The notes below the pieces were generated by a model. That model did not search any database. It saw nothing but the letters and a program-made list of their open reading frames with translations, and was not told the origin of the DNA. The position numbers and the translations under genes are program-made. Below, piece after piece: positions 4,188-38,993 of a stretch of DNA of 38,996 nucleotides (the first letter of the stretch is position 1; each line of letters starts with the position of its first letter). Source of the DNA: an archaeon (GTDB lineage Archaea > EX4484-52 > GLR71); contig WTCA01000084.1 in NCBI GenBank assembly GCA_013138805.1, forward strand, positions 1 to 38,996, given 5' to 3'.

Positions 4188-5603
4188 ATGAAATTTGAAG
4201 ATTTAGGACTTAATCCTCTCATTCTAAAACAAGTTAGGACGGAAGGATTCGAAGAAGCGACCGAGATACAGGCAAAAAGTATACCTGAAATCCAGAAAGG
4301 AAAGGATATTGTAGGCCAGTCAGTCACGGGATCCGGAAAGACAGTAGCATTCAGCATACCGATAATAGACAAGATCAGACAAGGAAAAGGTATTCAGACA
4401 CTGATACTTACACCGACAAGAGAACTTTGCATGCAGGTGAAAGATACTTTTGAGACTTTCGGAAAGCCTATGAAGCTGAAAGCAACAGCAATATACGGCG
4501 GAGCAGGGATGGAAGAACAGATAAGAGACCTGAGAAGAACAGAAATTGTTGTCGCAACACCTGGAAGACTTCTTGACCACATCGGAAGAAGGACAATAGA
4601 CCTGAGGAACATAAGATTTCTTATCCTTGATGAGGTTGACAAGATGTTTGAGATGGGATTCGTAGAGGATGTTGACAAGATAATCAATAATATCCCTAAA
4701 GAAAGGCAGACACTGTTATTCAGCGCTACCATGCCAAAAAAAGTGCACACAGTAATAAACAGATACCTGAAAAACCCGGTAATAATCAAAGGGCAGGTAA
4801 CTGTTGACAGAAGCAAGCTCAATCAGACATATTATGATATAGAACAGAACAGCAAGTTTTCCCTTCTTACTTCATTGATAAAGAAAAGAACAAGCGGCCT
4901 GTCACTGATATTCTGCGGAACAAGGCATCAGGTAGATTCCCTGACCAGCAACCTGAAAAAGAACGGCATAAAAGTTATGGCAATCCACGGCGGTCTCACA
5001 CAGAACAAGAGAATCCACGCGCTGGAATCCCTAAAAAACGAGAAGATAGATGTCCTTGTAGCAACAGATGTTGCGGCAAGAGGTCTTGACATAAAGAATG
5101 TCACCCATGTATACAACTATGATGTCCCAAAGACCTCAGAAGAATATATCCATAGGATAGGAAGAACAGCAAGGGCGGGAAAGAACGGCGATGCTGTAAC
5201 GCTCCTATGCGACAGAGACTACGACAATTTCAGGAGAGTGCTGTCTGACAAAAGCCTCAAGGTCGAAAAGCTGGATTTACCGCAATTTGAAAAAATCAGG
5301 TTTGACAGAGGTCTTGGAAAGCCAAGGACTTCAGGATTCGGTGGCGGCGGATACAGAGGCGGTAACGGACCGAAGAGAAACGGCAGCGGATCAAGAGGCA
5401 GCAGCTACGGACAGAGAAGCAGTAATGGACCAAGAAAAAGCAACGACGGACCTAGAAGTGGCGGCTACGGACAGAGAAGCAGTAACGGACCAAGAAAAAG
5501 CAACGATGAACCTAGAAGCGGTGGCTACGGACAGAGAAACAACAGCGGGCCAAAAAGACAAGGCGGATTCGGCAACAGAAGCAACAGAAAAGTTTCTTCC
5601 TAA
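4188..5603 (+). CDS. DEAD-box RNA helicase with low-complexity Gly/Arg/Ser-rich C-terminal tail
   Basis: Q-motif, SVTGSGKTVAF, PTRELCMQ, LDEVDKM (DEVD variant), SATMP, HRIGRTARAG; tail GGYGQRSSNGPRKSNDGPRSGGYGQRSSNGPRKSND. Confidence 0.95.
   Translation: MKFEDLGLNPLILKQVRTEGFEEATEIQAKSIPEIQKGKDIVGQSVTGSGKTVAFSIPIIDKIRQGKGIQTLILTPTRELCMQVKDTFETFGKPMKLKATAIYGGAGMEEQIRDLRRTEIVVATPGRLLDHIGRRTIDLRNIRFLILDEVDKMFEMGFVEDVDKIINNIPKERQTLLFSATMPKKVHTVINRYLKNPVIIKGQVTVDRSKLNQTYYDIEQNSKFSLLTSLIKKRTSGLSLIFCGTRHQVDSLTSNLKKNGIKVMAIHGGLTQNKRIHALESLKNEKIDVLVATDVAARGLDIKNVTHVYNYDVPKTSEEYIHRIGRTARAGKNGDAVTLLCDRDYDNFRRVLSDKSLKVEKLDLPQFEKIRFDRGLGKPRTSGFGGGGYRGGNGPKRNGSGSRGSSYGQRSSNGPRKSNDGPRSGGYGQRSSNGPRKSNDEPRSGGYGQRNNSGPKRQGGFGNRSNRKVSS
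5401..5550 (+). repeat. In-frame 60-bp tandem repeat (about 2.5 copies) encoding YGQRSSNGPRKSNDGPRSGG
   Basis: Sequences beginning 5401, 5461 and 5521 align at an exact 60-nt period. Confidence 0.93.
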
Positions 5604-6820: not shown

Positions 6821-7759
6821 TTATGTCATTTTACGACTGAAAGAAGAGGAATAATCTCCAGCAGGCAAAGGACCGCCATTCTCTATCTTCTTTGCAGTAA
6901 GATATGCTGCATAATTTCCTGCAAGCTTCACATCGTCGCCATAAATCATCATGCCGTGCAGAAAGCATGCGATATGAGTGTCACCTGCACCAGTAGTATC
7001 AACAATATCCTCAACATAAGATGGTTCTATATGATAAAATTTTCCTGCAGAATTGATAATAGAACCCCTATACCCCTGGGTGACAATCACTGTCTGAGGA
7101 CCACGCTCAGATAAAGATTCTGCCATATCGCAAATATCACCAGCATAAGCAATATTAAGATTATCTGCAATATCCGACAAATGCCTTCTGGACACCTGCA
7201 ATATATCAACATTCTCAATAATCCCGGAAAGGTCAGGATTAAGATAAGATTCTAAAGAACCGTCAACATTCTCAAAAAGAAGATGCTCCACATCAAGGCT
7301 TATCATAGAATTACTCAGATTATTTCTCAGGTACCTGACAGAGTCTAAAGGGATCTCATTGTTTTTTCCCAGAGCAAGATGTACATATTTACATTCTTTC
7401 AATTTAGCAATATGCTCTTCAAGAATATCAACAGAATACACAAAACTATCATTCACTGCCTTATACTCGCGCTCCTCAAGATCCCTGTCAAGAAAAACAT
7501 TCTCAAATTCCGGAGTCCTGTCAGATATGAAATTTACAAGCTCTATATTCTCATGTTTAAGGTTATCCAATAAATCAAAGTCATCCATACCCACCTTATT
7601 GAAGACTACTGCCTGCACTCCGAGATTAGCAAGCGCAAGACTGCAGTAATAGCTCTTGCCGCCCACCTTTTCTTCAACAGTACCGTAAAATTTCTTCTTG
7701 ATTATATCTTTAGTGATATACCCGATAACGCCAATCTTGTCTATCTCAATCACAGCCAT
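6821..7759 (-). CDS. PfkB-family sugar/nucleoside kinase
   Basis: VGGKSYYCSLALANLG near the N-terminus; anion-hole motif DTTGAGDTHIACF. Confidence 0.92.
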   Translation of the reverse strand: MAVIEIDKIGVIGYITKDIIKKKFYGTVEEKVGGKSYYCSLALANLGVQAVVFNKVGMDDFDLLDNLKHENIELVNFISDRTPEFENVFLDRDLEEREYKAVNDSFVYSVDILEEHIAKLKECKYVHLALGKNNEIPLDSVRYLRNNLSNSMISLDVEHLLFENVDGSLESYLNPDLSGIIENVDILQVSRRHLSDIADNLNIAYAGDICDMAESLSERGPQTVIVTQGYRGSIINSAGKFYHIEPSYVEDIVDTTGAGDTHIACFLHGMMIYGDDVKLAGNYAAYLTAKKIENGGPLPAGDYSSSFSRKMT

Positions 7760-7775
7760 CTATAAATTATAAATC

Positions 7776-8225
7776 TTATTCAGCCCTCGCCTCAGCCCAG
7801 GTAGTAGGAGACTCATAGACTCGCACAGTCGTATCAATCTTTGTCTTTAGCTTTACCCTTCTCGCAAATTCGGAAGCGATATTTTCAGCAGTAGGGTTTA
7901 TCTTATCAAAAGGTGCAATCTCATTCAAAAGCTTATGGTCGTAAGGAGTAAAGATTTCCTGCTCCATGATCTCTTTAAGGTCATAGAAATCCATGACAAA
8001 ACCGTCTTTCACTTCCCCGTCAAGCATGACCTCTATCTTATAGGTATGCCCATGTACATTTGCGCACTTGCCTTTATAACCTCTCAAAAAATGCGCACAA
8101 GACATCATGATGCTTTTTCCGATTCTCATATCTTCCACAGTCCTTATTTTTATCTTATGTTTTACTTTTTTCTTTAAAAAGCTTGCTGCACAGTACAAAT
8201 CAAAAGACAGATAAGTTTTCATCAA
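7776..8225 (-). CDS. 6-pyruvoyl-tetrahydropterin synthase / QueD-like protein (true start may be an internal Met)
   Basis: Zn/catalytic motif CAHFLRGYKGKCANVHGHTYKIEV, DFYDLKEIM, DHKLLNE, PTAENIA, YESPTTWAE. Confidence 0.9.
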   Translation of the reverse strand: MMKTYLSFDLYCAASFLKKKVKHKIKIRTVEDMRIGKSIMMSCAHFLRGYKGKCANVHGHTYKIEVMLDGEVKDGFVMDFYDLKEIMEQEIFTPYDHKLLNEIAPFDKINPTAENIASEFARRVKLKTKIDTTVRVYESPTTWAEARAE

Positions 8226-8234
8226 AAAACGGCC

Positions 8235-8717
8235 TTAATATACATCAGGTTCAACAGCCCGAAACAGGCACGAATTAAATATATATTTGGCAAGACCCGG
8301 CCTTTCGTTAAAGATTAACACAGCCTCATTTTCTATAAGTTCATCAGCAATCTTATCTGATTTTTCATCTAAAAAGTAGCTTGTAAATTTGTAAAATATA
8401 TGCAAAAACTCATGAACCCCTGTTATTGCATATTCATCCAGGCTACTTATTTCTTTAAAAGCAACATCATATACAAAATCATTATTTTTCAAATCATAAT
8501 ATCTACCACGTATAATTCCATCAGCGCCATTATCTTCAAATGTAACATACCTTATATTTCTCTCAAGTATCAGATCAACATCTTTTTTGCTTAAAGGCTT
8601 GGATTGCATTATCTGTTCTAATTCCTCGCGTGAATAGGCACGTTTCAGATTCAATAAAAAATCATGAAAATCTTTGGAATGCAAATTCAACTTAACATAT
8701 TGTCCCACAATAATCAC
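8235..8717 (-). CDS. Hypothetical protein with HExxH zinc-peptidase-like motif
   Basis: GVHEFLHIFYKF (HEFLH) followed by an acidic helix DELIENEAV. Confidence 0.6.
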   Translation of the reverse strand: MIIVGQYVKLNLHSKDFHDFLLNLKRAYSREELEQIMQSKPLSKKDVDLILERNIRYVTFEDNGADGIIRGRYYDLKNNDFVYDVAFKEISSLDEYAITGVHEFLHIFYKFTSYFLDEKSDKIADELIENEAVLIFNERPGLAKYIFNSCLFRAVEPDVY

Positions 8718-11463: not shown

Positions 11464-11498
11464 TATAAACTTTAACTAAAAAAAATTTATTAAACAGG
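11464..11498 (+). repeat. Divergent partial copy of the orphan-gene leader core (ataaactttaactaaaaaaaatttattaaacag)
   Basis: Matches the core ataaataactaaaaacaatttattaaacag of the copies at 34938, 35579 and 37031. Confidence 0.6.
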
Positions 11499-11824
11499 GA
11501 AAAACGATTTATAAAAAAGTTCATAATAAAGTAATCTTATTTCAGATAGACCTTTGCACAACCAAAAAATAGTTCACAAATTCCTTTCTAAAACACCCCA
11601 TAATCCACCTTATACTCCTCAAAGATATGAATTGTCTCATAGTTTCTTATTATATCTGAAAATTTGTTCTAGCTGCAATAGCTTCATGAAACTCCTATAT
11701 CATTAAAAAACAGCTCAGGCCTGAAACACTTATTAATTTTTCATCAGAAATATATTAAACCTATTCATCATCTAAAAGTAAACACATTTCAAGAAACAGC
11801 AATATCAAAAACAAGGTAACGCTT

Positions 11825-12775
11825 ATGGCACAAAAAGATATAAAAAGGCGAAAGCCGACAACAGAAGAGACAATATCAGCTATAGAATATGCCACAGAAG
11901 AAAAGATAAGCGGCAATCTTGCAGAGATCTTAAGATGCAAGTCAAGCATACCGTCAATATACAGGAATACACATTTCAGGGAAAGTGATATAGGAAAGAC
12001 AGACATCCTATTCTGGCGCCTGATAAGATACATAAATTACAAATCAGACAAAAAAGAAAATATTCCAGAAGACACCACAAGGATATTGAGAACAATAGTA
12101 GACTCTTCAAAAGATATTTTTGCACAAGAATTATATGATAATATTAAGATCAAAAAACAGAGCGAGTGGGAGGAATGGACAGACAGCACCTGCGAATTCA
12201 ATCCTGAGAAAAGCTACATAGACTACAAAGAGTCAATAAGGCTCAGAGACATGCTAGAGCCTCTGCTGCAGGAAGAATTTGAAAAGAAAAGAAAAAATAT
12301 TATCAGAAAGAAGATTGAAAAAGGCCATCATTCAGGATACTGGATACTTTATACTAATTTTGAGCTGGAATTTGCCCAGTATATGTTCAACGAACTTCCA
12401 GACACCGTCTCAAAACTCTTTAAGATGATTGAAGATACTGAAAAAGATACTATAGAATATTATCTTGAATCATATCTTAAAGAGGCAGAAAAACAGGATT
12501 ACAAAGATCTCCAAAAGGTTCTTGAAAAATTATGGCCGGAAACAGAAGACGAATACGAAACACCAGCGATACACGAAAAGGCAAGAGACCTTATATTGAA
12601 CATGCTCAAAGACCTAAAGAATGAAAAAAAGATAAACAAAGAACGCATGCTAACACTTGTCTCAGATTCATTTAAACTGACTATACCGGAGACAGAACAA
12701 TACTTTTCTATGTTTGAAATTATAGAAAAAAACGAAAAACCGCAGGAAAAAAGATATATAAAAAGATACTTCTGA
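11825..12775 (+). CDS. Hypothetical charged, helix-rich protein, 316 aa
   Basis: Uninterrupted ORF, Lys/Glu-rich and predicted mostly alpha-helical by eye. Confidence 0.65.
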   Translation: MAQKDIKRRKPTTEETISAIEYATEEKISGNLAEILRCKSSIPSIYRNTHFRESDIGKTDILFWRLIRYINYKSDKKENIPEDTTRILRTIVDSSKDIFAQELYDNIKIKKQSEWEEWTDSTCEFNPEKSYIDYKESIRLRDMLEPLLQEEFEKKRKNIIRKKIEKGHHSGYWILYTNFELEFAQYMFNELPDTVSKLFKMIEDTEKDTIEYYLESYLKEAEKQDYKDLQKVLEKLWPETEDEYETPAIHEKARDLILNMLKDLKNEKKINKERMLTLVSDSFKLTIPETEQYFSMFEIIEKNEKPQEKRYIKRYF

Positions 12776-12953: not shown

Positions 12954-13166
12954 ATGTCGACAATAGGTTCCAACACAGAGTCACGGATAATCAAAAAACT
13001 TAATGAAAAACCATATTCTGTATCCCAACTCGCAACGGATCTAAAAGTCAGAAGAGATTTCCTGGCAGGATTTCTTGAAGCTATGCGTATTGCAGGCAAG
13101 CTGGAAGTCATCGATGTAGGAAGAGCAAAAGTATACAGACCTATCAGAGAGGTGGAAGGAATATGA
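12954..13166 (+). CDS. Small winged-helix/HTH protein, 70 aa
   Basis: SRIIKKLNEKPYSVSQLATDLKVRRDFLAGFLEAMRIAGKLEVIDVGRAKVYRP resembles a winged helix. Confidence 0.7.
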   Translation: MSTIGSNTESRIIKKLNEKPYSVSQLATDLKVRRDFLAGFLEAMRIAGKLEVIDVGRAKVYRPIREVEGI

Positions 13167-16100
13167 AAAGATACATAACTGCAATCATCCTTTCAGCCAT
13201 AGCTCTCGCGATAATAGTCCCATACATATTCGCAGCACCGGATTACATCGAAGGCACAGTAAGAAGTCTGGATACAAACAGCCCGATAGGAGGCCTTACG
13301 ATAGACATAGTGAACTGCACAAACAATTCACAGGTATTCAACACCACAACAACCCCCGCAGACGGTACATTCTGGCTGGACTACAACAACACCTGGGGCA
13401 ACTATTCAATAAATGTAAGCGGAAATCCAAGCTACACAGACAAGCAGTTCAACAACGCCAGCCAGTGCTTCGGGAACGGAACTAATATCACGCTCCAGCT
13501 CTACCCTGTCGCGACAAGCAGCCTCAATGTCTCTCTGAAAGACATAGCAAACTCAAGGCCTATACCTAATGCCATAGTAACGCTATACAGGTCCAACCTG
13601 CCTAACGACCCACCGATAGACCAGTCAAACAACTACAGATGCACAGCAGGTATATGCAGGACTGGTGCAGATGGAACCATACTTCTTATAGTCCCCAACC
13701 CAGGAACATACAACATAACGATAGAAAGCGCATATTATAACAACTGGAATGAGACACTTGCCACATTCAATGTATTCAGCGAACTTGGAAAGAACAGGGA
13801 CTATGCAAAAAATCTCAAAGGAAGCGGCCTGATAGCAGGAAGTATTATAGATACATATAATGGAAAGCCTGTCGAGAGTGCTTTTGTAGAGCTATACAAA
13901 CATGATTCAGACCCATACTCTGGAGAAAACCTGAGCATCTCAGGAATATACAATTACAGCGCAGTCACAGGTACAGACGGCAAATACGAGATATATGTCC
14001 CACCAAACATCCTGTCATTAGGCAACTACGATATAAAGGCATCGCACAAAGACTGGACACCCAAGATAAATTACAATAACGATCCAAACCCTGACGGCGG
14101 CTGGGACAGCCTGAACACGAACATAACTGTATCTCTGGAAGGTAAGCTTCTTATAAACGGAAGCATCTACGACTGCAACAACAACGATACAGGACTGTCA
14201 CTGGACATATATGTAACAGACAAATCAGGAAGCGGTTTTGACTATCACATACATACAGACAACGGCAATTTCAGTTTCTTCGTAAAGAACACAAGCCTTG
14301 GATACAACGGATACAACATAACAATCAACGGCACAGAATACAGCGCGACCATACTTTCAAATGCGCAGCAGAACATATCAGAATGTGTATATGGCTCACA
14401 GAAGATAAACGGAACAATCAAAGATATGGAAAACATCCAGCCGATAAACAATGCCATAATAATCATAAGCCTTGGCGACGGGACAGAATACAATACAAAA
14501 ACTATTATCGACGGAACATTCGATATGGATGTAAAAGGAGAGACCTCATTCAGTATAGGTATTGACAAGACAGGGTATACAGCACAGTCAGGCCTTCAAG
14601 ACAGTGACGGCCTCTACGAAACAATATACCTTACAGGAGAAAATCACATATATGGATATATAGAAGACAATGAAGGCTCAAGAAGAGTAGCAGGGCCGAA
14701 GATAGAAAATGTAACAATAGAGATAAAGAACCAGACAACATCTGCTCAGATATACACCACCACCACTGACGCAGACGGATACTATTCTATATACATCTCT
14801 TCTGACATAAACTACACATTATCACTAAACAAAAACCTTTACAATTCAACAGAAGATAATATCTCAGCAGGCGAAAGCCCGAACAGCACAATATACCTGA
14901 AAGGGACAACACATATTGAAGGATCTGTACTTGACGATAGCCCATTCGCTGTAAACAAGAACATAACATCAGGAACAACGCTTGAATTCAAAAACGAAAA
15001 CGAGACAGTATACATACTCACAGCCTCAGGCGGAGAATACTCCATAGACATGGCAATAGACAGCTACAACATAACAGCATCCAAAACAGGATACACAACA
15101 AAGACAGAGACCGGATTCATATCAGGCAGCAATATATACAAAGACATCAACCTGGAAGGAGAGCTGAACATGACGCTGTACACGACTGATGACTTCAGCA
15201 GCCAGCCAGTAAATCTCATAAAGATACGCCTTTTCGACAAGGACACAGGGATAGTAAAGTATGACAGCATCATTACTCTGAACGGCAAAAAGAACATATA
15301 TGTCGACTCAGACAGGGAGTATTACATTGCAGTGTATGAGAACAATTACTTCCCTATTTATGAACTGATAGCTGCCAACGGAACGCAGTTCGAAAAAGAA
15401 TACAGGATGATAGCAAAATACGAGGCGATGATAACAGACAGCGAGAACGGAGCACCTGTGGAAAATGCAGACATATATGCATACCACTATTTCAATGAGA
15501 CATACTATCCTCAACAGCTCAATGAGACAACAGTCACAGTCACTGTCAACTGCTCAGGCATGTTCCTTGACAACATAAATGTCACAATAACAGGAGACTC
15601 ATACTATGACTCAGGAAACACTACAGCAGGTGTGATAACATTTTCAACAGTCCCGTTAAACAATTACACTGTAGAAGCAAACGGATCACTGGACGGATGC
15701 AGCACAAGAAATGTTACTGTAAATGTGACACAGGGCGGCATCGCATACAACACGACAATAGAGCTGAACACGACAATGATCATGGTCCATGTGACAAACA
15801 AGATATCAGAAACCATCTATCCTGCAAATGTCAGCTACGAAAACCTGACAGGCTATAACATAACTATGCAGGGCTTCAACAATACATATTACTACGACAG
15901 CTATGTCGTCCTTGGAAGCTATAACATATCAGCAAATGAAAGCGACCACTACAACAACACTGCTGCCTGCAATGTGACAATACCTGGAGAAGTGAACTGG
16001 TGCAACATAACGCTCCTGCCAAGACCAGGAAACCTGAGCATTTACATCTATAATTCAACAGACGACCCTATAACAGGTGCAACAGTAAACATCACAAATG

Positions 16101-19100
16101 GAACTGACTCATACGAGCTCAGCACGACAGACGGCTGGGCAAATTTTACAGATATAGAATCTGTCTGGAACATGACAATAGACGCGATAGATCTTGGATA
16201 CCAGAACCAGAGCCATACAGATATATACACTTATCCGAACAGTGATACATCATACAATTTCACGCTTAGTATCACAAAAATAACAATAAATGTTACTGAT
16301 GATATGGGCATACTTGAAAACGCAACTGTATCCCTTACAGAGCCGTCAACAGGTGTTATCCTTACAGATTATCTTGGAAACCCGCTGACAGGCCTTACAG
16401 ACAACAACGGAAGCATAACATTCACACAGTTCAACCTGTCATCATACAACCTGATAATAAACGAGACATCTCATGAATTCTACAACCAGACAATCATCAT
16501 ATCAACAGACACAGACAACAGCCTTGAGATAGACCTTGACACGACAAGGATGACAGTGAATGTAGACGACACTTATGGCGCACCTCTGGAAAACATCTAT
16601 GTAATGCTCAAAAAGACAGACGGCACAATGAACTTCACAGGATACACAAACATATCAGGCCAGATAATCTTTGAAAACCAGACATTCCCGCCGGGAATAT
16701 ATAACCTCACCGTAAACGGATCAGCAGAAGGCTACAATTACACAGTAAAGCAGATAAATATCTATGCAGGATCACAGAACATTGAAAATGCAGTTCTTGA
16801 AGAATTCAGGCTGACAGTGCAGGTCAACAGCAGCTATGACAGCACGCCTGCATACAATGTCACAGTTGATATAGGCACACTGCCAGAAAAGACAACAGAC
16901 TTAAACGGCATAGCAGAGTTCAGGAATCTTGAGAACAGGACATACAGCATAATGATAAACGGTAGTGAAGTGGGATATAACAATACCGCAATATCATTAA
17001 ATGTCACAGGAGATACAAAGATATACATATTTCTTAAAGAGAACACATTCAAGATTATTGTTGAAGACGAGGAAGGAAACCCGGTTGACGGCGGCGTTAC
17101 AGTCATATTATATGATCCATATGACTCAATTATATACGACGATGCATTTGGAGAAAATCTTATAAATTATACAACAATCACAACCAACAACATAACTTTC
17201 AGGAAGATGCAATACGAGCCCTCACCGGGAAACACAGTCACGATGGAAACAGACGGAAGCGGTCAGGGATATAGCATAAACCTTACAGATTACACTATAC
17301 TCAACGGCACCAACGGCCCTAACACAACAATACTAAACATCACACAAATACTAGTCAATGTCACAAACGCCACAGGAGGGCCGATAAACGCAGCATATGT
17401 AAAAATAAACACAACTACTGGAGACCCTGTCCAGAACGCACTCGGTCAGACAATGGACGGCATGACAGCATCAAACGGAACAATAACATTCAAAAGGCTT
17501 CTCCCAAACACATACAATGTATCTATTGAAAAGAATGTCAGCGGAACAATGATCTACAACTCAACCCTCATCACAATTTCAGCAGGAGAGCACGCATATG
17601 TCCATCTCGACCCTAATGACACAATAGTCCCGTCGCTCAAAGATACATACTACACAGACATATTCGGCAGCGAAACTTACGAACTCACAATAAATGCAAG
17701 CGGTCTGATAGGACCTGTAAATAACGCAACAGTAAAGATATACGCAACAGGCTACAACTACAGCGACTCATACTGGTACAACTATGAAGCTACAGACAAC
17801 AAGACAACAGATGCAAACGGCATCATAGTCATCTCTAACATGCCCTCTGGAGTATACGATGTACTCATAGATGGAGAAGCGCAGGGATATGGAATAATAA
17901 AGACACAGATACGGTTCGGAAAGCTTGTCTTCTCTAAAGGGACGACCGGAAGCGACGGTGTCATAGAAATACCTGTAGACGGACGCAGGATAGAAGACGC
18001 GGTAGACAATGGATATTTCATAAGAGTAACTGGAGCAGGATACGGAACTTATGACATATTAAACAATGGAGAATCAGGAATTGAAGGTACATATTATGAC
18101 CATGCCCAATATGACCAGGATATATATCCGGGTTATGAAATAAACAACAGGACAGATATATCATTGACAGGTATAATAAACATGACAGGAACAATAATAG
18201 ACAAGTTTGCATTGAACGCCCAACCAAGTTTCAGATATCTTGAAAGCGTATTTTTAGAGTTCATCCTCCACGGCACGCAGACTGTAAGATACACAACATA
18301 CACAGACATCAACGGGACATACCAGATAAATGTCAGCCCTGTAGTAGCAAGCGCAACAGACCTCTCAAGCCCGCTCACCTATGACATAAGATCATCAAGA
18401 ATAGGATACACAACAGACATAGTGGAAGAAGCGATGCCTGCAAATCCTGCATCAATAATATCAGACATAGAGCTTGAAGGGGCAGGAACAATGGACGGGA
18501 CATTGCTTACTTATAATGACAATGGACCAGTATCAGGAATAATCGTAAGATACATAGACAATGCAACAGTTTCAGAGATATACAAGACCACAAGTGACAA
18601 CGACGGAAAGTACAGCATGAAAGTAAACCCATACTATCAGCCATACAAACTGTCATTCTCGGACCCGACATCAAACACGAAGAACCACACGACACAGAGC
18701 TATACAGAGCCGCACACAGACGAGATATATTATCTGTTGGAACAGGATCAGGCAATAATAAACATATATGTTCTTGACGACTACAGCGCAGAAGTAGAAA
18801 ACGCAAAGGTTACAATAGACTCAATTATTGACGGAAATACGACAACATTTTACACAAACGAAAACGGGAAAGTTGACTTCTTCATAGACGGTGAAGACTG
18901 GAACCTTGGCCAGTACAACATAACAGCAGACGGAAAGACACTTGGATACGGCTCAGGCTACAAGACACAGAACATAAACTTAATAGGATACAACTCAGTC
19001 ACCATCACAATAAACACCACAAAGATAAACATAAGTGCATCGAGCAATTTAGGCAATCCCATATACAACACGACAGCAAATCTCACAGGAACTATGTCAG

Positions 19101-21100
19101 ATTCAAAAGAGATAGAAAACAATACGGCAACCTTCAGCAAGATTGTCTCTGGCAATTACACCGTGACATTAACAAGTTCATATTTTAGCTATTACACAAC
19201 ATCTATAGAAATAAACGACAGCAACGCAGGTACTACAATACAGAAGAATATTATGCTTAACGAAAGCATGATATCAATAAGAGTCATCAACCAAACAGGC
19301 GGCACGCTTGAAAACATAAGCATATCTGTCAACGGCCCGACACCATACTCAGAAAAGACAGACTCATCAGGCTGGCTGAACAAGACAGAGATACTCTCAG
19401 GAAACTACACGATAAGCTTCACAAACGCGACAGAATTCACAGGCAGCAACTATTTCATACCACAGAACATCTCAGTCACCCAGACAATAGGAAACACCAC
19501 ATACATAGAAGTGACAGCCATAGAGCGAATAATAAATGTCACAGTCCATGCCTACGACATAAAAGACATATACAATGCATCAAGAACAGAGATATCAGGT
19601 AACACGCTGAACATAAGCCTCACAAATGATACAGGCATCACCCAAAATAAGACAGGAGACGCAAACAGCATAATTACAGGCAACGGAATCGCCAACTTCA
19701 CAACGCTGTATGAAGGAGTATACAGGATAAACGCGAGCGGACTGAACTACACATCAGACAATGAGACCACATTCAACACGACCGAGCCCGGATTCTCAAA
19801 CACGCCGCAGGAAATATTTCTGAAAAAGATTGATATGGCCTACATCAACGAGACAGTGCTGTCAGGCGGGTCAGCTATAGGCGGGGCTCAGGTAAACTTA
19901 TACTGGAACTCTACCACGCTCATTGAAACAATGACAACAGACACTTACGGAAGAGCAATTATCCCTGTAAATGCCACACTCTACAACTCAACACTTCATC
20001 TTGAGATATCAAAGACAGGATACGTGACAAAGACAACGGCACAGTTCAACATAAATATCGGTGATATATATGACAACACGACAAGCATGACACTGGAAGA
20101 CTCTGGTTACAATCCCCCCGGGGGCAGCAGCAGCCCGGGCAGTTCATCACCACCATCATCCTATTTTCCGCCAAGCCCGCCACCCCAAGACAATGACACT
20201 ATAGAAGACACAGACTTAATACAGAAGATATACGAATATCCAGAGACACGGGAAGAGATAGAAACAGAGATAAGAGATAACACTGGTCTCAACAATATAC
20301 TAAGCGAATATTTCGGAGACCTGTCAGAAGAAGACATCTATGAAATTTCAATAGAGACAGAGACAGGAATCAAAGACTTTGAGATATCAAGAGACATATA
20401 CACAGATGAAGAAGGAAAGACAGTCATAGGCATAAACGCATACTACACAGGAGACAGCACAATAGAAAGCCTTGCCATCTATGATATCCTGCCGCAGGAA
20501 CTGATAGAGATAAGCAATATAGCATTCACAGAATCATCGGCAGAGATATTCACCGATATAGACAGAAATTCATATCTGTCAATAAATTCCGGCATAGAAC
20601 CTGGCACCTATCACAGGGTTGAATACATTACAGAAATAAAGATTGAAGCGTCAGACATAGACAGTTTCACAAAGCCGGTAATAATTCTCACAGGCATGGC
20701 AAAGAAAGAGGCTGTGACAGAACCGGACAGGACAGATATCATAGATGCACCTGAACCAAAAAAGAGTATCCTTGACTATTGGTGGATTTTCGCCCTTGCA
20801 GCCATAGCAGTAATAGCTGGCGTAATTGTTGCAAGAACGGCAGGGAAAAAGAGTACAGGAAATTATAGTTTCAGTCCAAATGAAACAAGAAAGCCATTGA
20901 ATCCCCCCACAACGCCTGATGCAGGCACACCTTATGGCTTTGGAATAAGCCAGAACAAGATTGCGACTTTGCCCGAAAAAGTTGCCAGCACAGTAGAGAA
21001 GATAGAAGAAGAGATATCGGAAGATATCAAAAAAGTAGCCCAAAAAGAGGTTGCATACCTCACAAAACAGCTGGAGAAAGGAAAGTTCATAGTTGACTGA
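13163..21100 (+). CDS. Giant (2645 aa) secreted, membrane-anchored surface protein with tandem carboxypeptidase-regulatory-like beta-sandwich repeats
   Basis: N-terminal signal-like MKRYITAIILSAIALAIIVPYIFAAP; repeats of type G.I.D..G.P...A.V.L...TDANG.Y.I..L..G.Y.I; very many N-x-S/T sequons; Pro/Ser linker PPGGSSSPGSSSPPSSYFPPSPPP; C-terminal TM WWIFALAAIAVIAGVIVA plus cytosolic charged helix. Confidence 0.9.
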   Translation: MKRYITAIILSAIALAIIVPYIFAAPDYIEGTVRSLDTNSPIGGLTIDIVNCTNNSQVFNTTTTPADGTFWLDYNNTWGNYSINVSGNPSYTDKQFNNASQCFGNGTNITLQLYPVATSSLNVSLKDIANSRPIPNAIVTLYRSNLPNDPPIDQSNNYRCTAGICRTGADGTILLIVPNPGTYNITIESAYYNNWNETLATFNVFSELGKNRDYAKNLKGSGLIAGSIIDTYNGKPVESAFVELYKHDSDPYSGENLSISGIYNYSAVTGTDGKYEIYVPPNILSLGNYDIKASHKDWTPKINYNNDPNPDGGWDSLNTNITVSLEGKLLINGSIYDCNNNDTGLSLDIYVTDKSGSGFDYHIHTDNGNFSFFVKNTSLGYNGYNITINGTEYSATILSNAQQNISECVYGSQKINGTIKDMENIQPINNAIIIISLGDGTEYNTKTIIDGTFDMDVKGETSFSIGIDKTGYTAQSGLQDSDGLYETIYLTGENHIYGYIEDNEGSRRVAGPKIENVTIEIKNQTTSAQIYTTTTDADGYYSIYISSDINYTLSLNKNLYNSTEDNISAGESPNSTIYLKGTTHIEGSVLDDSPFAVNKNITSGTTLEFKNENETVYILTASGGEYSIDMAIDSYNITASKTGYTTKTETGFISGSNIYKDINLEGELNMTLYTTDDFSSQPVNLIKIRLFDKDTGIVKYDSIITLNGKKNIYVDSDREYYIAVYENNYFPIYELIAANGTQFEKEYRMIAKYEAMITDSENGAPVENADIYAYHYFNETYYPQQLNETTVTVTVNCSGMFLDNINVTITGDSYYDSGNTTAGVITFSTVPLNNYTVEANGSLDGCSTRNVTVNVTQGGIAYNTTIELNTTMIMVHVTNKISETIYPANVSYENLTGYNITMQGFNNTYYYDSYVVLGSYNISANESDHYNNTAACNVTIPGEVNWCNITLLPRPGNLSIYIYNSTDDPITGATVNITNGTDSYELSTTDGWANFTDIESVWNMTIDAIDLGYQNQSHTDIYTYPNSDTSYNFTLSITKITINVTDDMGILENATVSLTEPSTGVILTDYLGNPLTGLTDNNGSITFTQFNLSSYNLIINETSHEFYNQTIIISTDTDNSLEIDLDTTRMTVNVDDTYGAPLENIYVMLKKTDGTMNFTGYTNISGQIIFENQTFPPGIYNLTVNGSAEGYNYTVKQINIYAGSQNIENAVLEEFRLTVQVNSSYDSTPAYNVTVDIGTLPEKTTDLNGIAEFRNLENRTYSIMINGSEVGYNNTAISLNVTGDTKIYIFLKENTFKIIVEDEEGNPVDGGVTVILYDPYDSIIYDDAFGENLINYTTITTNNITFRKMQYEPSPGNTVTMETDGSGQGYSINLTDYTILNGTNGPNTTILNITQILVNVTNATGGPINAAYVKINTTTGDPVQNALGQTMDGMTASNGTITFKRLLPNTYNVSIEKNVSGTMIYNSTLITISAGEHAYVHLDPNDTIVPSLKDTYYTDIFGSETYELTINASGLIGPVNNATVKIYATGYNYSDSYWYNYEATDNKTTDANGIIVISNMPSGVYDVLIDGEAQGYGIIKTQIRFGKLVFSKGTTGSDGVIEIPVDGRRIEDAVDNGYFIRVTGAGYGTYDILNNGESGIEGTYYDHAQYDQDIYPGYEINNRTDISLTGIINMTGTIIDKFALNAQPSFRYLESVFLEFILHGTQTVRYTTYTDINGTYQINVSPVVASATDLSSPLTYDIRSSRIGYTTDIVEEAMPANPASIISDIELEGAGTMDGTLLTYNDNGPVSGIIVRYIDNATVSEIYKTTSDNDGKYSMKVNPYYQPYKLSFSDPTSNTKNHTTQSYTEPHTDEIYYLLEQDQAIINIYVLDDYSAEVENAKVTIDSIIDGNTTTFYTNENGKVDFFIDGEDWNLGQYNITADGKTLGYGSGYKTQNINLIGYNSVTITINTTKINISASSNLGNPIYNTTANLTGTMSDSKEIENNTATFSKIVSGNYTVTLTSSYFSYYTTSIEINDSNAGTTIQKNIMLNESMISIRVINQTGGTLENISISVNGPTPYSEKTDSSGWLNKTEILSGNYTISFTNATEFTGSNYFIPQNISVTQTIGNTTYIEVTAIERIINVTVHAYDIKDIYNASRTEISGNTLNISLTNDTGITQNKTGDANSIITGNGIANFTTLYEGVYRINASGLNYTSDNETTFNTTEPGFSNTPQEIFLKKIDMAYINETVLSGGSAIGGAQVNLYWNSTTLIETMTTDTYGRAIIPVNATLYNSTLHLEISKTGYVTKTTAQFNINIGDIYDNTTSMTLEDSGYNPPGGSSSPGSSSPPSSYFPPSPPPQDNDTIEDTDLIQKIYEYPETREEIETEIRDNTGLNNILSEYFGDLSEEDIYEISIETETGIKDFEISRDIYTDEEGKTVIGINAYYTGDSTIESLAIYDILPQELIEISNIAFTESSAEIFTDIDRNSYLSINSGIEPGTYHRVEYITEIKIEASDIDSFTKPVIILTGMAKKEAVTEPDRTDIIDAPEPKKSILDYWWIFALAAIAVIAGVIVARTAGKKSTGNYSFSPNETRKPLNPPTTPDAGTPYGFGISQNKIATLPEKVASTVEKIEEEISEDIKKVAQKEVAYLTKQLEKGKFIVD

Positions 21101-21883: not shown

Positions 21884-21940
21884 GAGTGCCAGCACCTGCC
21901 CACTGAGCAGAGCTTCGGGGTATTAAACCCAGATAGAACT
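21884..21940 (-). other. GC-rich hairpin element resembling an IS200/IS605 (TnpB-associated) right end
   Basis: Minus strand AGTTCTATCTGGGTTTAATACCCCGAAGCTCTGCTCAGTGGGCAGGTGCTGGCACTC; hairpin CTGCT-CAGTG-GGCAG; shares spaced sequence with 35514-35555. Confidence 0.4.
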
Positions 21941-21946
21941 AAAAAT

Positions 21947-31745: not shown

Positions 31746-33422
31746 TTACATCATAGGAGGCATTCCGCCGCCGCCCATTGGAGGCATCCCTTCAGGCATT
31801 CCGCCACCGCCACCAAGCTTTGAAGCAGATATGACATCATCAATCCTCAATATCATCTCAGCAGCCTCAGAAGCGGATTTTATAGCCTGCGTCTTAATCT
31901 TTATCGGCTCTACAACACCCTGCTTAAGCATATCCTGAACTTTATTCTTAAATACATCAATCCCTGCCCATTTTACGCCCTTGTCATGCTGTGACCTGAG
32001 TTCCACAAGGATATCTATAGGATCAATACCTGCATTCTCTGCAAGGGTCTTAGGGATGATATCCATAGCATTAGCAAAAGCAGATATGGCAAGCTGTTCT
32101 CTTCCACCGACAGACTCACTGTATTTTCTGAGATCTTTTGCAATCTCAGCTTCAGGAGCGCCGCCGCCGGCAACAATCTTTCCGACTTCAATAGATGCAG
32201 CAACACCGCCAAGAGCATCTTTCATAGCCCTCTCTATCTCATCGACTACATGTTCTGTGCCGCCACGGACAAGGATAGATACAGATTTTGGCTCTTTGCA
32301 TTTCCTGACAAATATCATCTCGCTGCCGGAAATCTTTTTCTCTTCAACAATGCCGGAACTGCCAAAATCTGATGCAGCCATCTCATCAAGATTAGATATC
32401 ACGCTTCCGCCCGTTGCCTTGGAAAGTGCATCCATATCTGATTTCTTGACCCTTCTTGTAACCATTATACCAGCCTTTGCAAGATAATGCTGCGCCATAT
32501 CATCAACGCCTTTCTGGCAGAAAACAACATTTGCCTTTGAAGCTATAATCTTATCCACCATACTTTTCAGCATCTTCTCTTCCTGCTCAATAAATGCATT
32601 CATCTGGGACGGGTCAGTAATCCTTATCTGCGCATCTCTCTCAAGCTCCTTGACCTCAATTGCGCTGTTCAGAAGCAATATATTCGCGTTCTCAACTTTA
32701 CGCGGCATACCTGAATGCACAATTTCCTTATCAATTATAAGCCCGCTGATAAGCGTTGTCTCATCAGTGGATCCGCCTGCCTTTTTCTCAAGCTTTACCT
32801 GGTCAAGGTCAATCACGATCTTGCCATCATCCTCTACTGCCACCTGACTTATCGCCTCAACAGCAATCTTTGCAAGGAAATCTTTAGCAGACTCGCTGGA
32901 TTTGCCTGTCATAGATGTAAGAGCAATCTTTATCAAAAGCTCCTTATCTTTTATACTGACATCAATGCCTATCTTATTGATTATCTCAAGCGCCTTCTCT
33001 TTCGCAAGCCTGTATCCCTGAGCTATGCTTGTAGGGTGTATCTTCTGTTCCAAAAGACCTTCTGCCTGCTTAAGGAGTTCACCCGTAAGAACTGCAGCAG
33101 TTGTCGTTCCGTCGCCCACTTCTTCATCCTGCGCCTTTGCGACCTCTACAACCATCTTTGCAGCCGGGTGCTGTATCTCCATCTCTTCAAGTATTGTAAC
33201 ACCGTCATTTGTAATGACAACTTCTCCAAGAGAATCAGTAAGCATCTTATCCATACCTTTAGGACCAAGAGTGGTCCTTACAGCATCAGCCACAACTCTT
33301 GCTGCCGCAATGTTTGACATCTGAGCGTTCCTTCCGCTCTCCCTGAAAGTGCCTTCAGGCACAACAATTATAGGCTGTCCGCCAATCTGTCCGTTCATAT
33401 CTTTCATCCTCCGTCTTTTCAA
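31746..33422 (-). CDS. Thermosome (group II chaperonin) subunit
   Basis: [50 protein letters not shown]-terminal [22 protein letters not shown]. Confidence 0.96.
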
Positions 33423-34060: not shown

Positions 34061-34921
34061 ATGCGCATGAATACTGCAAAAATAGCTGATTTGCTCACAG
34101 ATGTAGAAAAGATTAGACCTCTTGAGAAGAAATTCAACATATTGCGTCAATTACTATATGATACTGGAGCAGACAGATATCAGGATCATGAACCGGAAAT
34201 CAGGCATAAGATAGAAAAAGTGAGCAGTGAGATAGAAAAAGAAGTAAAGAACTATTACGAACGACCAAAAATAGTAGAAGGATATCTCAAGATAGGTAAA
34301 AGAGTAAGAGACCCGTCCGGCTGGGAAATCAAAAATCTCAATAAATTGATACAGTTAGTCAAAGAAAATAATGTTACTGAAAGTATCCTTGATATCGGCT
34401 GCGGTTACGGGCACGATGTCATATGGTTTGAACAGCATGGTTTTGAAGCTTTTGGACTGGACATTTCAGAACCACTTATCGAGAGAGCAAGAACTCTTTA
34501 CGAACCCGACACAGGTATAACAGATAACGACATATCCAGATTTATCGTAGGCTCAATGACAGACATGCACCAGTTTGATGACGCAAGTCTCGGCTGTGTA
34601 AAGATGGACGCATCACTTTACCATCTGCCATATTATGGTAATGACAGCCCAGTGAACCTGACCATCCGGGAAACACACCGCATCCTGGAAGATGGAGGAG
34701 TAATCTATCTCAGGGTTCATAGTGTCGCAGACGGCGAAAACGGTTTCATGGAGCTGGAACAGCGCGGAGAAGATCTAAACAGCAGATACGGACAGAACCT
34801 AACAAGCGAAGAGGTAAGAGATATGCTTGAAAGCAACGGATTCGAAATCATAGAACTGTTAAACGAAAGACAAGGCAAAAGGCAAAGAGACTGGTGCAGC
34901 GCCTATGCCAGAAAGGTATGA
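34061..34921 (+). CDS. SAM-dependent class I methyltransferase
   Basis: Motif I SILDIGCGYGHDVIWFEQHGFEAFGLDIS; later GCVKMDASLYHLP and IYLRVHS. Confidence 0.88.
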   Translation: MRMNTAKIADLLTDVEKIRPLEKKFNILRQLLYDTGADRYQDHEPEIRHKIEKVSSEIEKEVKNYYERPKIVEGYLKIGKRVRDPSGWEIKNLNKLIQLVKENNVTESILDIGCGYGHDVIWFEQHGFEAFGLDISEPLIERARTLYEPDTGITDNDISRFIVGSMTDMHQFDDASLGCVKMDASLYHLPYYGNDSPVNLTIRETHRILEDGGVIYLRVHSVADGENGFMELEQRGEDLNSRYGQNLTSEEVRDMLESNGFEIIELLNERQGKRQRDWCSAYARKV

Positions 34922-34937
34922 GCATCTAAAAGAAATA

Positions 34938-35099
34938 CTTGATTTACAACTTATTCTATAAATAACTAAAAACAATTTATTAAACAGTTTTTAATAAAGT
35001 TTTAAAAATTAACACACACCAGTGAATACAGGATTTAAGAGATTCCCTAAAAATCAAAGGAACTCTTGAGTACCTGAATTTTAAAGGAGATGAAAAAAT
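34938..35099 (+). promoter_or_regulatory. Orphan-gene leader copy 1 (TATA-like box, two hairpins, RBS)
   Basis: About 160 nt, aligns nearly end to end with 35579-35740; hairpin arms 34976-34984/34990-34998 and 35039-35046/35059-35065; RBS aaaggaga. Confidence 0.75.
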
Positions 35100-35513
35100 A
35101 TGGGAGAAAAAATAGGAAAGGTCTATACATGCGACCCTGATAAAGGACAGGGTGAAGGATATCAAGTATTATTTGGAATAGATGTTTCAGAAGAATCAGT
35201 TAAAATCAGAGATAAAGGACTTAACCTGTACATAAAAGACGGCCGGGTTGTTGGAGTTGATACAGGAACCGTTTTCGGTGCACCGTGGCCGACAACAGGC
35301 ATGATGTATGCATTAACTGAACTGATAGAAGAAAATGGCCAGATTGACCCAGTGAAATCTACAGCAGTTATAGCTGAAAGAGATAGATATGATGGCGGAG
35401 AAAAAAGGGAAGTTAATCTAAAAGAAATATATGAAATCGGATGGAACATACCGGACTATACACTTGAAAATTTATTAGGTAAAAAAACCGACGAGATTGA
35501 TCTTCTGCAATAA
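35100..35513 (+). CDS. Orphan hypothetical protein, 137 aa
   Basis: ATG with RBS aaaggagatg upstream; no family recognised. Confidence 0.65.
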   Translation: MGEKIGKVYTCDPDKGQGEGYQVLFGIDVSEESVKIRDKGLNLYIKDGRVVGVDTGTVFGAPWPTTGMMYALTELIEENGQIDPVKSTAVIAERDRYDGGEKREVNLKEIYEIGWNIPDYTLENLLGKKTDEIDLLQ

Positions 35514-35555
35514 ATGAACTGCCCGAGGGGCCGCAAGCTCCCTGGCATTAAACAC
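35514..35555 (-). other. GC-rich hairpin element resembling an IS200/IS605 right end, abutting the stop codon of the upstream ORF
   Basis: Minus strand GTTTAATGCCAGGGAGCTTGCGGCCCCTCGGGCAGTTCA; stem GGAGC/GCCCC with G-U pair inside TGCC/GGCA. Confidence 0.4.
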
Positions 35556-35578
35556 AATTAAGAACATACCCCAACCCC

Positions 35579-35740
35579 CTTGATTTACAACTTTTTCTAT
35601 AAATAACTAAAAACGATTTACTAAACAGTTTTTAATAAAGTTTTATAAAGTTCACACGTATCAGTGAGTACAAAGTCTAAGAGATTCCCAAAAAATCAAG
35701 GGAATTTTTGAGTACCTGAAATTTAACGGATGTGAAAAAT
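35579..35740 (+). promoter_or_regulatory. Orphan-gene leader copy 2
   Basis: Aligns with copy 1 from cttgatttac to the ATG; hairpin arms 35617-35625/35631-35639 and 35681-35689/35700-35708. Confidence 0.75.
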
Positions 35741-36118
35741 ATGACAAGTGATAATGCCGAAAGTCTCAAATTCAGAGATATTGAAGGATATAAAGATGGT
35801 GAAACGCATCTTGTGTCATTCATACAGGGAGAACATCATAAGCTCTATGAAGAAACAGAAAAACTAAACGATGCAATGACATACTCATGGAATCATGATG
35901 AACCAAACATAAGTTATTGGAATTCTGTATATGCCCCACAGATAGAGAAAAACGAAGAAAGGATGAAACTTCTCAAATATATTGCAAGAGAAAAAGGCTC
36001 TGTTCTTGTGAAAAGCGTTGAGAATTATATAAACACTCTAAGAGAAGAGTTCGAAACCAAAATGGGAGAATATGAAGATATTATCCAGCAGTTCAACGAA
36101 AACTCATTGGACCCTTAA
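35741..36118 (+). CDS. Orphan hypothetical protein (MTSDNAESLKF...)
   Basis: ORF 35732..36118; alignment of leaders 1 and 2 places the ATG at 35741 rather than the GTG at 35732. Confidence 0.62.
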   Translation: MTSDNAESLKFRDIEGYKDGETHLVSFIQGEHHKLYEETEKLNDAMTYSWNHDEPNISYWNSVYAPQIEKNEERMKLLKYIAREKGSVLVKSVENYINTLREEFETKMGEYEDIIQQFNENSLDP

Positions 36119-36156
36119 GGAACACAAAACTCTTCAAACCAGCAGAAAAACAGACA

Positions 36157-36178
36157 GTTCCCCTGTAAAAAGGGGAAC
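36157..36178 (+). promoter_or_regulatory. Perfect 8-bp hairpin GTTCCCCT-GTAAAA-AGGGGAAC
   Basis: Inverted repeat in the intergenic region, 35 nt before the ATG at 36214. Confidence 0.75.
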
Positions 36179-36213
36179 CTTTAATCTTTTCAAAAAGATA
36201 AGGTGAATTAAAA

Positions 36214-36930
36214 ATGGAAAAAACACATCATTTAGAAAATGGAAAAAACCTCAGTGTTTTCGCAAATTTTGATTTTTATACAAATAAAGAGTCAGATGAA
36301 GCGTATAATATACTAAATGATTTAAAACCGGACATGATAATAAGTTCAATATATGATAATTCTACAACACCACTATATTCAAAAATTATCAGCAGATTAA
36401 GCGGTTGCATGACTATACCTTATACAATTGCATATGCTATGGCGACAAAAAGATCAACTAAGCAATTCACAATATTTGATTATGATAGAACTATACCTCA
36501 AGAAAAAATTGAAATCAGGAAAAAAGAATCAATCCTTGAAAATATTATAACGCCTGCAGTATTTGGAATACACAATCTTGTGCTTTTTCCCGTTGCATAT
36601 CCTTTGCATAAATATGCGGGAGATCATCTAAGCAATGAATTTTATGAAAAAAAAGGGAGACCAGTAACAAAAAGAATTGCAAGAGGAATAGTATCTTTAC
36701 CATACGAATTCGAAAGGCTGCTTCGCAAAGACGAATTTCTTGAAGACATGTACAGGCCGCTTATAGAAAAGTCTGCAGAAGTCTTAAAAAATGATGACAA
36801 TAAAATACAAAACCTTCTGCTTGTAATTAATAACATAAGAGATTTTGGAGTAATTGAAAATCTGATTGAAGATGAATTTAGCAATTATCTAAAAATAGAT
36901 AACAGTATAGAAAAAAGTGATAAAAAATGA
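36214..36930 (+). CDS. Hypothetical protein, 238 aa; very weak TraB/PrgY-like impression
   Basis: RBS aaggtga; segment LLRKDEFLEDMYRPLIEKSAEV...NLLLVINNIRDFGVIENL; family link uncertain. Confidence 0.62.
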   Translation: MEKTHHLENGKNLSVFANFDFYTNKESDEAYNILNDLKPDMIISSIYDNSTTPLYSKIISRLSGCMTIPYTIAYAMATKRSTKQFTIFDYDRTIPQEKIEIRKKESILENIITPAVFGIHNLVLFPVAYPLHKYAGDHLSNEFYEKKGRPVTKRIARGIVSLPYEFERLLRKDEFLEDMYRPLIEKSAEVLKNDDNKIQNLLLVINNIRDFGVIENLIEDEFSNYLKIDNSIEKSDKK

Positions 36931-37019
36931 CAAAAGATAACAGCAATATCATTGAAAGCGAAGATAATAATGCGAAATTAACAGAAACAATGATTCCGAT
37001 TTCAAAAACTGGTTTGTAA
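36927..37019 (+). CDS. Possible 30-aa small protein translationally coupled to the upstream gene
   Basis: ATGA overlap (ATG 36927, upstream stop TGA 36928-36930); MTKDNSNIIESEDNNAKLTETMIPISKTGL. Confidence 0.4.
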   Translation: MTKDNSNIIESEDNNAKLTETMIPISKTGL

Positions 37020-37030
37020 TCAAAAAACAT

Positions 37031-37100
37031 CCAATTTATAACTTTTTCTATAAATCACTAAAAACAATTTATTAAACTATTTTTAATAAAGTTTTAAAAA
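37031..37100 (+). promoter_or_regulatory. Orphan-gene leader copy 3 (5' half conserved)
   Basis: ttctataaatcactaaaaacaatttattaaactatttttaataaagttttaaaaa; perfect hairpin arms 37068-37076/37082-37090. Confidence 0.72.
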
Positions 37101-37173
37101 GATAACAATAAACAATATATATGACTAAAATAGAGTTCAGACCAATTAAAAGTCAAACAATATGGTGATTATC

Positions 37174-38268
37174 ATGGAAAGAACAAACCCACTGGAAGAA
37201 TGTTTAGGTATTGAATACGGAAAAGGTACGATTTCAACAGGAGGCTACAGGTTCAGCACAGGTATCCCGAAACCAGATGTTTGCCTTCGTGGAAGAAGAC
37301 CGGACGAAGAGGCATATAAGTTGTTTTGTAATGCTTTCATTGGCGACAAAGATTCAGGAACTCAGGCTATAAAACCCGGTGATTTCAGGTATATACCTGA
37401 ACTTAAGACCTGGGCACATATACCAGACTCTTACAGATCAATTGAACAGAACATGAACACAATAGTCAGGGAATCTTATTCAACAGATCCTACAAAAGAA
37501 AAAGACAGCGGCAAAACAGTCAAAGACTTTTTCAGGATTGACTCAGGCGGCCATCCGGACCAGTTCGGAATGCTGGACCAGCACAACAGAAGAAAAGCCG
37601 GAAGAGCAATATTCAACACATCCTACGATGAAAACGGAAACCTTATCGAAGAAGAATCATTCACTCCAAGACAGATGAGAAAAGCAAGAATTCCAGAGAA
37701 AGGAGAGCATCTCACAATATTATACCCTGAAGCTTATGAGCGGGCTTTTGATGAATCCTCAAAGAAAAAAGCACTGAAAGAGATAACAGGCTATGAAACA
37801 ATAGATGAAGCAAGCTGGCTAGGGCTTAAAGAATACAATGGTCTCGAATGGTCTTTAGGAAAAATATCATCAAGCGGAAGTATTGATGAATATCCAGGAA
37901 CAGGAAAACCACTCTATACAAAACCATTCAACAGGGCAAACAGTACAGTGATTATAACAATACTCAAAGACGGAAAACGGACTGTCGGTGCAGGTGGCGG
38001 AGACACATCAGTTGGGAATCTTTATCAGCACTGGGATTTAGAAGCGCTTGAAAAAATACCTGGCGGTATAGAAACTGCTCAACAGATAGAAGATGAAGTA
38101 ATAGAGACACGCCCGGAAAACCTGGAAGGCCTGCAAATCGCATTAGGCACCGTAATCGGCAGAAAAGCAGGGATGACACCACCATACGGCCATGCGCTTA
38201 AGGTTACAGGAATTATTGAATATAACTATATAACAGATAATCCATACACTAAATGGGGTATTCAATAA
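37174..38268 (+). CDS. Orphan hypothetical protein, about 364 aa
   Basis: ORF 37162..38268; start MERTNPLEE at 37174 preceded by ggtgatt RBS. Confidence 0.72.
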   Translation: MERTNPLEECLGIEYGKGTISTGGYRFSTGIPKPDVCLRGRRPDEEAYKLFCNAFIGDKDSGTQAIKPGDFRYIPELKTWAHIPDSYRSIEQNMNTIVRESYSTDPTKEKDSGKTVKDFFRIDSGGHPDQFGMLDQHNRRKAGRAIFNTSYDENGNLIEEESFTPRQMRKARIPEKGEHLTILYPEAYERAFDESSKKKALKEITGYETIDEASWLGLKEYNGLEWSLGKISSSGSIDEYPGTGKPLYTKPFNRANSTVIITILKDGKRTVGAGGGDTSVGNLYQHWDLEALEKIPGGIETAQQIEDEVIETRPENLEGLQIALGTVIGRKAGMTPPYGHALKVTGIIEYNYITDNPYTKWGIQ

Positions 38269-38303: not shown

Positions 38304-38993
38304 ATGGCAGAAGACAGCAGTAATCCTTTTGAAAAAGGAATAGACCCTGATACATACCATGCTCTTTTCGAAGAGGATTTTAAAACAGAGGATCCCTGGA
38401 GCTTTGGAACTTCAAAATATGAACAGACAAAATACGGACGACAGATAAAGGTCTCAAAAAAATACATGCCAGACCCAAAGAAGGTATTAGAGATTAGCTG
38501 CGCTGAAGGCGTATATACAGAAATGCTTGCAGATGAATTCAAAAACGCGCATATAACAGGAATAGAGATATCTCATAGTGCTTTAGAAAGAGCAGAAAAA
38601 AGACTGGAAGCATACATAAAAGAAGGAAGAATAGAACTAACAGAAGGAGACATAACTGAAGAGATATACAGCCTACCTGAAAATTCTTCAGACCTGACAT
38701 TCTGGAGCGAATCTATACCCTACCTGAATGCATTGATCACTCCTGTAGACATATATAACTGTATCGAGCAGCTCCATAAAGTACAAAAACAAGGCAGCCA
38801 CCTTGTAATGGCCAACATAATAGACCAGGAAGGTTATCCGGAAGGCCCGATAACAAGAAAAGTGCTTATAGACAATATCAAAAGCATTATATCTGAATTC
38901 TTTGAGCCTGTATGTGAAAGAAGCTACAGGGAATTTAAAGTGGAAGAGAATCAGGAATTTGATTACGAAATCTGGGTTTTCAGAAAGGATTAA
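38304..38993 (+). CDS. SAM-dependent methyltransferase (NodS-like motif I)
   Basis: KVLEISCAEGVYTEMLADEFKNAHITGIEISHSALERAEKRL; RBS aaggtga. Confidence 0.82.
   Translation: MAEDSSNPFEKGIDPDTYHALFEEDFKTEDPWSFGTSKYEQTKYGRQIKVSKKYMPDPKKVLEISCAEGVYTEMLADEFKNAHITGIEISHSALERAEKRLEAYIKEGRIELTEGDITEEIYSLPENSSDLTFWSESIPYLNALITPVDIYNCIEQLHKVQKQGSHLVMANIIDQEGYPEGPITRKVLIDNIKSIISEFFEPVCERSYREFKVEENQEFDYEIWVFRKD

Follow-up and report, generated by a model that had tools for sequence, protein, structure and literature searches.

A promoter-like repeat conserved upstream of unrelated, mostly ORFan genes in a genus of Aenigmatarchaeota

What kind of element is kept in place when the gene behind it is not? 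The question arises in a stretch of 38,996 nucleotides (contig C52 of genome G000, which comprises 1.33 Mb in 103 contigs; hereafter the window), where a block of about 160 nt had been noticed at 34938-35099 and 35579-35740, each time running up to the start codon of a different protein, with its 5' half again at 37031-37100. The original prediction took the block for a long structured 5' leader placed before unrelated genes, pointing to a cassette-like system or an expanding regulon with control at the RNA level. For many genes of DPANN archaea neither function nor regulation is known, and this locus shows one way in which, in a small genome, newly arrived genes may come to be expressed.

The repeat and its probable core promoter

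By repeat search we found the two longer copies where they had been placed, at 34938-35008 (copy 1) and 35579-35649 (copy 2, 94% identical), with a further 110-nt match between them (77%) that reaches the start codon, and a third at 37030-37100 (copy 3, 87%). Common to all three is a 67-nt block on the plus strand (34942-35008, 35583-35649 and 37034-37100). Matches to it within the 1.33-Mb genome have E values of 4.5e-30, 2.3e-27 and 4.7e-24, which excludes a chance origin of the copies. Copy 3 is present as predicted, though not as a 5' half, since it comprises the whole block including its TATA end (37091-37100); missing from it is only the transcribed leader, a separate stretch shared by copies 1 and 2.

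The last ~10 nt of the block match the BRE/TATA boxes of the genus. In a position weight matrix comparison its final 16 nt (ATAAAGTTTTAAAAAG) match promoters of unrelated genes, among them that of the thermosome subunit (31746-33422, minus strand), whose sequence ATCATAAAGTTTATAAAACTTGG is conserved within the genus and served as our TATA reference. At copy 1 the putative TATA box is GTTTTAAAAA (34999-35008, plus strand), with a BRE-like AATAAA before it. Very probably, then, GTTTTAAAAA/GTTTTATAAA, with which the block closes on its 3' side, is the TATA box; TATAAATAACTAA, about 40 nt upstream, which had been proposed originally, is probably part of the upstream element. With the TATA box at the end of the block, ~57 nt of the block lie upstream of transcription and the 5' UTR of copy 1 becomes about 70 nt, not 100-120 nt as first estimated. 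From the TATA positions we infer start sites near 35030, 35670 and 37121, with 5' UTRs of ~50-70 nt. At a further copy, on contig C65, the TATA box stands about 35 nt ahead of the ATG of a glmS paralogue, the spacing expected in a short-leader archaeal gene.

The DNA upstream of the TATA box appears to be under strong constraint. Between the window and G003 (copy a) or G005, block copies are 79-86% identical; the thermosome gene, compared between these species, reaches only 49-51% at its fourfold-degenerate sites, a difference that gene conversion between copies of one genome may inflate. The constraint might stem from local DNA geometry instead of a specific factor. A search for a palindromic operator gave a best dyad in the AT-rich block that was no better than column-shuffled controls (P 0.18).

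A profile-type search of the genome and its relatives, of the sort originally suggested, revealed a family larger than three copies. Using blastn and a sequence-only profile we obtained 17 matches in four of the seven genomes of this Aenigmatarchaeota genus (four in G000, nine in G002, two each in G003 and G005), 13 of which had gone into building the profile; the four independent of it are G002:C172, G002:C27:1559, G005:C22:22089 and G002:C153, the last being weak (E 1.8e-4). The same profile found no match in 27 other genomes of the order. The consensus of the block is ATTTATAACTTTTTTTATAAATAAnTAAAAAnAATTTATTAAACAGTTTTTAATAAAGTTTTAAAAA. The fourth copy in G000 is the one before the glmS paralogue (C65:206-271), unlinked to the island in the window, and a search of the whole genome also returned a partial match at 11464. 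Fifteen copies keep an intact TATA end, and every one of these is followed by an ORF in the same orientation, which for the minus-strand copy of G002:C27 holds only if its contig is closed on itself. The two TATA-less copies are not before an ORF: one lies beside a DDE transposase (G005:C22:22089), the other between convergent gene ends (G002:C27:1559). The genomes compared are fragmented metagenome assemblies, and the genome-wide promoter statistics rest on the loci retrieved.

Transcribed leaders and RNA structure

Since the conserved block ends in a TATA box, it sits upstream of the likely start site. Behind it, the leaders of copy 1 (35009-35099, plus strand, with a hairpin at ~35029-35077 and the SD-like sequence AAGGAGATGA) and copy 2 (35650-35740, plus strand, hairpin at ~35678-35710) are homologous to each other. 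A structured model of the ~80 nt following the TATA box recovered only four places, namely copies 1 and 2, G002:C113:4884-4963 and G002:C172, which are the very sequences from which the model had been constructed; the shared transcribed leader is thus present at 4 of the 17 block matches. Folding gave a z of -3.8 for the leader of copy 1 and a weaker -2.2 for copy 2, and was not significant over the leaders of the G002 pair. Within the 10-bp leader stem 90% of cells pair, compared with 33-70% when the stem is slid, and covariation across the four sequences did not rise above shuffles. The block itself yielded no RNA consensus structure, the remaining block leaders are non-homologous and unstructured, folding no better than shuffles, and Rfam gave no match at the gathering threshold or at E up to 1.

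RNA-level regulation had been deduced from the length of the 5' UTR, a deduction that was not supported: the block lies before the likely start site, is free of structure, and is accompanied by the shared leader at under a quarter of its matches. As this leader is common only to copies 1 and 2 and two places in G002, it argues weakly for regulation of this type, and an RNA-level step at copies 1 and 2 is possible.

Two further hairpins were observed. One, GTTCCCCTGTAAAAAGGGGAAC, lies at window positions 36157-36180, between the genes for the 125-aa and 238-aa proteins described below, and is partly retained in G002. The other belongs to an interspersed nested-hairpin element (GGAGC..GCTCC followed by GGGGTATTAAACCC) found at 21906-21942 in the window, at 1107-1260 in locus L017 and at 4720-4880 in locus L022; it forms two stem-loops in L017 and L022 and had no Rfam match.

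Cargo genes and their replacement between species

The genes behind the three copies all lie on the plus strand. Copy 1 precedes a 137-aa ORFan (35100-35513) with a homologue only in G003 (46-50%), likewise behind a block copy. Behind copy 2 is a 125-aa ORFan (35741-36118), for which we found a distant homologue in G005, again behind a block, and a 3'-end remnant in G002; the 238-aa ORFan that follows (36214-36930) has no block of its own and is possibly co-transcribed with it. Copy 3 precedes a 364-aa ORFan (37174-38268), whose G002 orthologue also stands behind a block copy. The conserved left neighbour of copy 1 is a SAM-dependent methyltransferase (34061-34921, plus strand) and the right neighbour of the array a NodS-like SAM-dependent methyltransferase (38304-38993, plus strand), with the thermosome gene forming the conserved edge of the variable island.

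None of the four ORFan proteins gave anything credible in Pfam, NCBIfam, PADLOC or PHROGs. The predicted structure of the 137-aa protein is mostly beta (pLDDT 73) and the model had no significant match in the PDB; that of the 364-aa protein is a low-confidence model (pLDDT 30.5). The proteins behind copies 1 and 2, which had looked dissimilar, are indeed not homologous (BLASTP E 8.4; profile-profile probability 0.2%), and when cargo from four genomes was compared all against all, the only pairs were of one gene in different species. At other places in the genus the block stands before the GlmS paralogue, a 404-aa protein related to island proteins, a 297-aa gene with a short-chain dehydrogenase behind it, and further ORFans. 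Together with the NodS-like methyltransferase, a PIG-L de-N-acetylase located in or beside related islands and a phosphomannomutase-like neighbour, the glmS paralogue and the dehydrogenase suggest amino-sugar or glycan chemistry.

Comparison between species revealed replacement of the gene behind the block. G000 and G002 are syntenic (89% identical) from the left methyltransferase through block 1, and the alignment ends at 35014, 6 nt past the block, beyond which the window has the 137-aa gene and G002 a 222-aa gene. It resumes over block 2 and its leader and ends at 35726, within the leader, where the 125-aa gene of the window faces a 240-aa gene in G002; G002 has kept the tail of the 125-aa gene (36047-36225 aligned). 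In G003 a block precedes the 297-aa gene. The G005 sequence matches that of G003 from the ribosome-binding site of this gene onward, its upstream DNA being different, and in G027, from another family (72% identical), the gene is preceded by an ordinary TATA promoter without a block. Fourfold identity of this gene between G003 and G005 is 87%, against 64% for the thermosome gene, which is no more than suggestive of a faster exchange. The island adjoins the thermosome gene, which in G005 it separates from the phosphomannomutase-like gene; in G006 these two genes are 117 bp apart. Regulatory DNA is therefore kept and genes differ, between copies, as the original prediction had anticipated, and also between species at the same place, and because of this its description as an expanding regulon or cassette-like locus is a fair one. 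In the integron sense the term cassette is not supported, as no integrase above cut-off and no attC-like pairs were found (see below).

We considered whether the 364-aa gene had passed from one genus to another, since its 83% in G008 exceeds the 69% of a clamp-loader subunit, but set this aside because the three short near-identical G008 contigs may be mis-binned strains. Loci L072, L085 and L086 of G008 hold near-identical variants of the region comprising the 364-aa gene, the methyltransferase, a 113-aa gene and the PIG-L gene in a single bin. The 3666-bp G002 contig C27 (locus L020) is apparently closed on itself, with a gapless alignment to G000:C65 across both contig ends; it contains the glmS paralogue, the 404-aa gene and three block copies, and may be a small circular element or the assembly of a tandem repeat.

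Readings of the locus

We consider it likely that the block is a regulated promoter peculiar to this genus, and that mostly ORFan genes turn over behind it. The ~57 bp of conserved upstream DNA, joined directly to the BRE/TATA core, would be a putative binding region for a transcription factor or an architectural protein, and the block would place a changing set of mostly ORFans, plus the glmS paralogue elsewhere, under common control. In the thermosome-side island, recombination would have repeatedly swapped the gene behind the block, the promoter remaining. Copies 1 and 2 have their first ~70 transcribed nt in common as well, where a hairpin may bring in a further step of control, which would be secondary. 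Recognisable from its sequence, such a promoter allows ORFans that could not be read in any other way to be assigned to one putative regulon, and ties them to enzymes suggestive of amino-sugar chemistry.

Archaeal regulons with a conserved motif just upstream of BRE/TATA have been described for the UV-inducible hexanucleotide of Sulfolobus acidocaldarius (PMC5817253) and for TrmB-family sugar regulators (PMC10817205). As far as these accounts describe them, they resemble the present case in having a conserved element before the core promoter that several genes share. They differ in that their motif is short, whereas 57 bp are conserved here, and in that the genes here are mostly lineage-specific ORFans that change between species.

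Were the repeat instead a structured 5' leader, a riboswitch or protein-binding hairpin copied before different genes, the folding of leaders 1 and 2, the preferential pairing of their stem and the homologous leader at two more G002 genes would fit, and copies 1 and 2 do resemble the riboswitches and cis-regulatory leaders of Rfam in sharing sequence between promoter and start codon. However, the universal part of the repeat is unstructured and stops at the TATA box, most leaders are unrelated and fold like shuffles, and the covariation and Rfam results likewise go against this reading, which we regard as unlikely. Tandem gene duplication followed by protein divergence would agree with the match of copies 1 and 2 from 4 nt ahead of the block through to the ATG. 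The original prediction had itself named diverged paralogues as the outcome that would overturn it, but the cargo proteins proved non-homologous in both comparisons, which excludes gene duplication; moreover, for each of them a separate homologue exists in a different species, and G002 carries a different gene at the same position, so that we give this explanation almost no credence.

The block could instead serve for recombination, as a specific site or a hot spot through which cassettes move, in which case its location at promoters would be a by-product. The breaks in synteny at the block, the serial arrangement of blocks with unrelated ORFs and the ends of contigs close to copies (0.2 kb from a block in C65, a few nt in C27) are all in keeping with this, but the same breaks are expected from ordinary homologous recombination between conserved promoters, and the copies keep their TATA box and their orientation toward the ORF. 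In Aenigmatarchaeota attC sites have been reported (PMC9668308), and archaeal integrons and gene cassettes likewise consist of small unrelated ORFs in a row, every one of them flanked by a copy of one repeat. Here, in contrast, the repeat is on the 5' side and promoter-like. A search for the integron integrase (TIGR02249) gave two tyrosine recombinases far below cut-off, with the 14 control genomes alike; as the genome is 93% complete, this absence is not absolute. No attC-like pair (RYYYAAC ... GTTRRRY) was found in the island of the window or in four related regions. An integron was rejected on both grounds, and a recombination site of the kind considered here seems quite improbable. Even less is to be said for a short mobile element, MITE-like or derived from a virus or plasmid, that carries a promoter: its copies would be dispersed over several contigs, as observed, and a DDE transposase adjoins one truncated copy, yet the repeat search found no long terminal inverted repeats bounding the block and nearly all copies are directly before ORFs. 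Neither the block nor the two cargo proteins searched had relatives among viral contigs, phages and plasmids.

Returning to a regulated promoter with changing cargo, it is conceivable, if rather doubtful, that this promoter is at the same time the point at which a gene-capture locus exchanges its genes, integron-like in function without integrase or attC, the archaeon being reduced and probably host-dependent. Incoming ORFs would then recombine at the conserved promoter and ribosome-binding site, and each new ORFan would be expressed at once under the existing regulon.

Several other genes were observed in the course of the analysis. Locus L054 encodes two ArsR-type HTH paralogues (7448-8353 and 11803-12747) with an S_layer_C-like match at the C-terminus. 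Their genes adjoin the housekeeping glmS and the gene of an EamA transporter, the latter being separated from the first of the pair (7448-8353) by a weak block. In the same locus, the product of 2245-3060 matches MbnB/TglH/ChrH RiPP modification enzymes (E 5.6e-10) and its gene adjoins a phosphomannomutase-like gene. At 13163-21100 the window encodes a predicted 2645-aa surface protein in which Ig/carboxypeptidase-regulatory-like segments recur many times and the C-terminus forms a membrane anchor.
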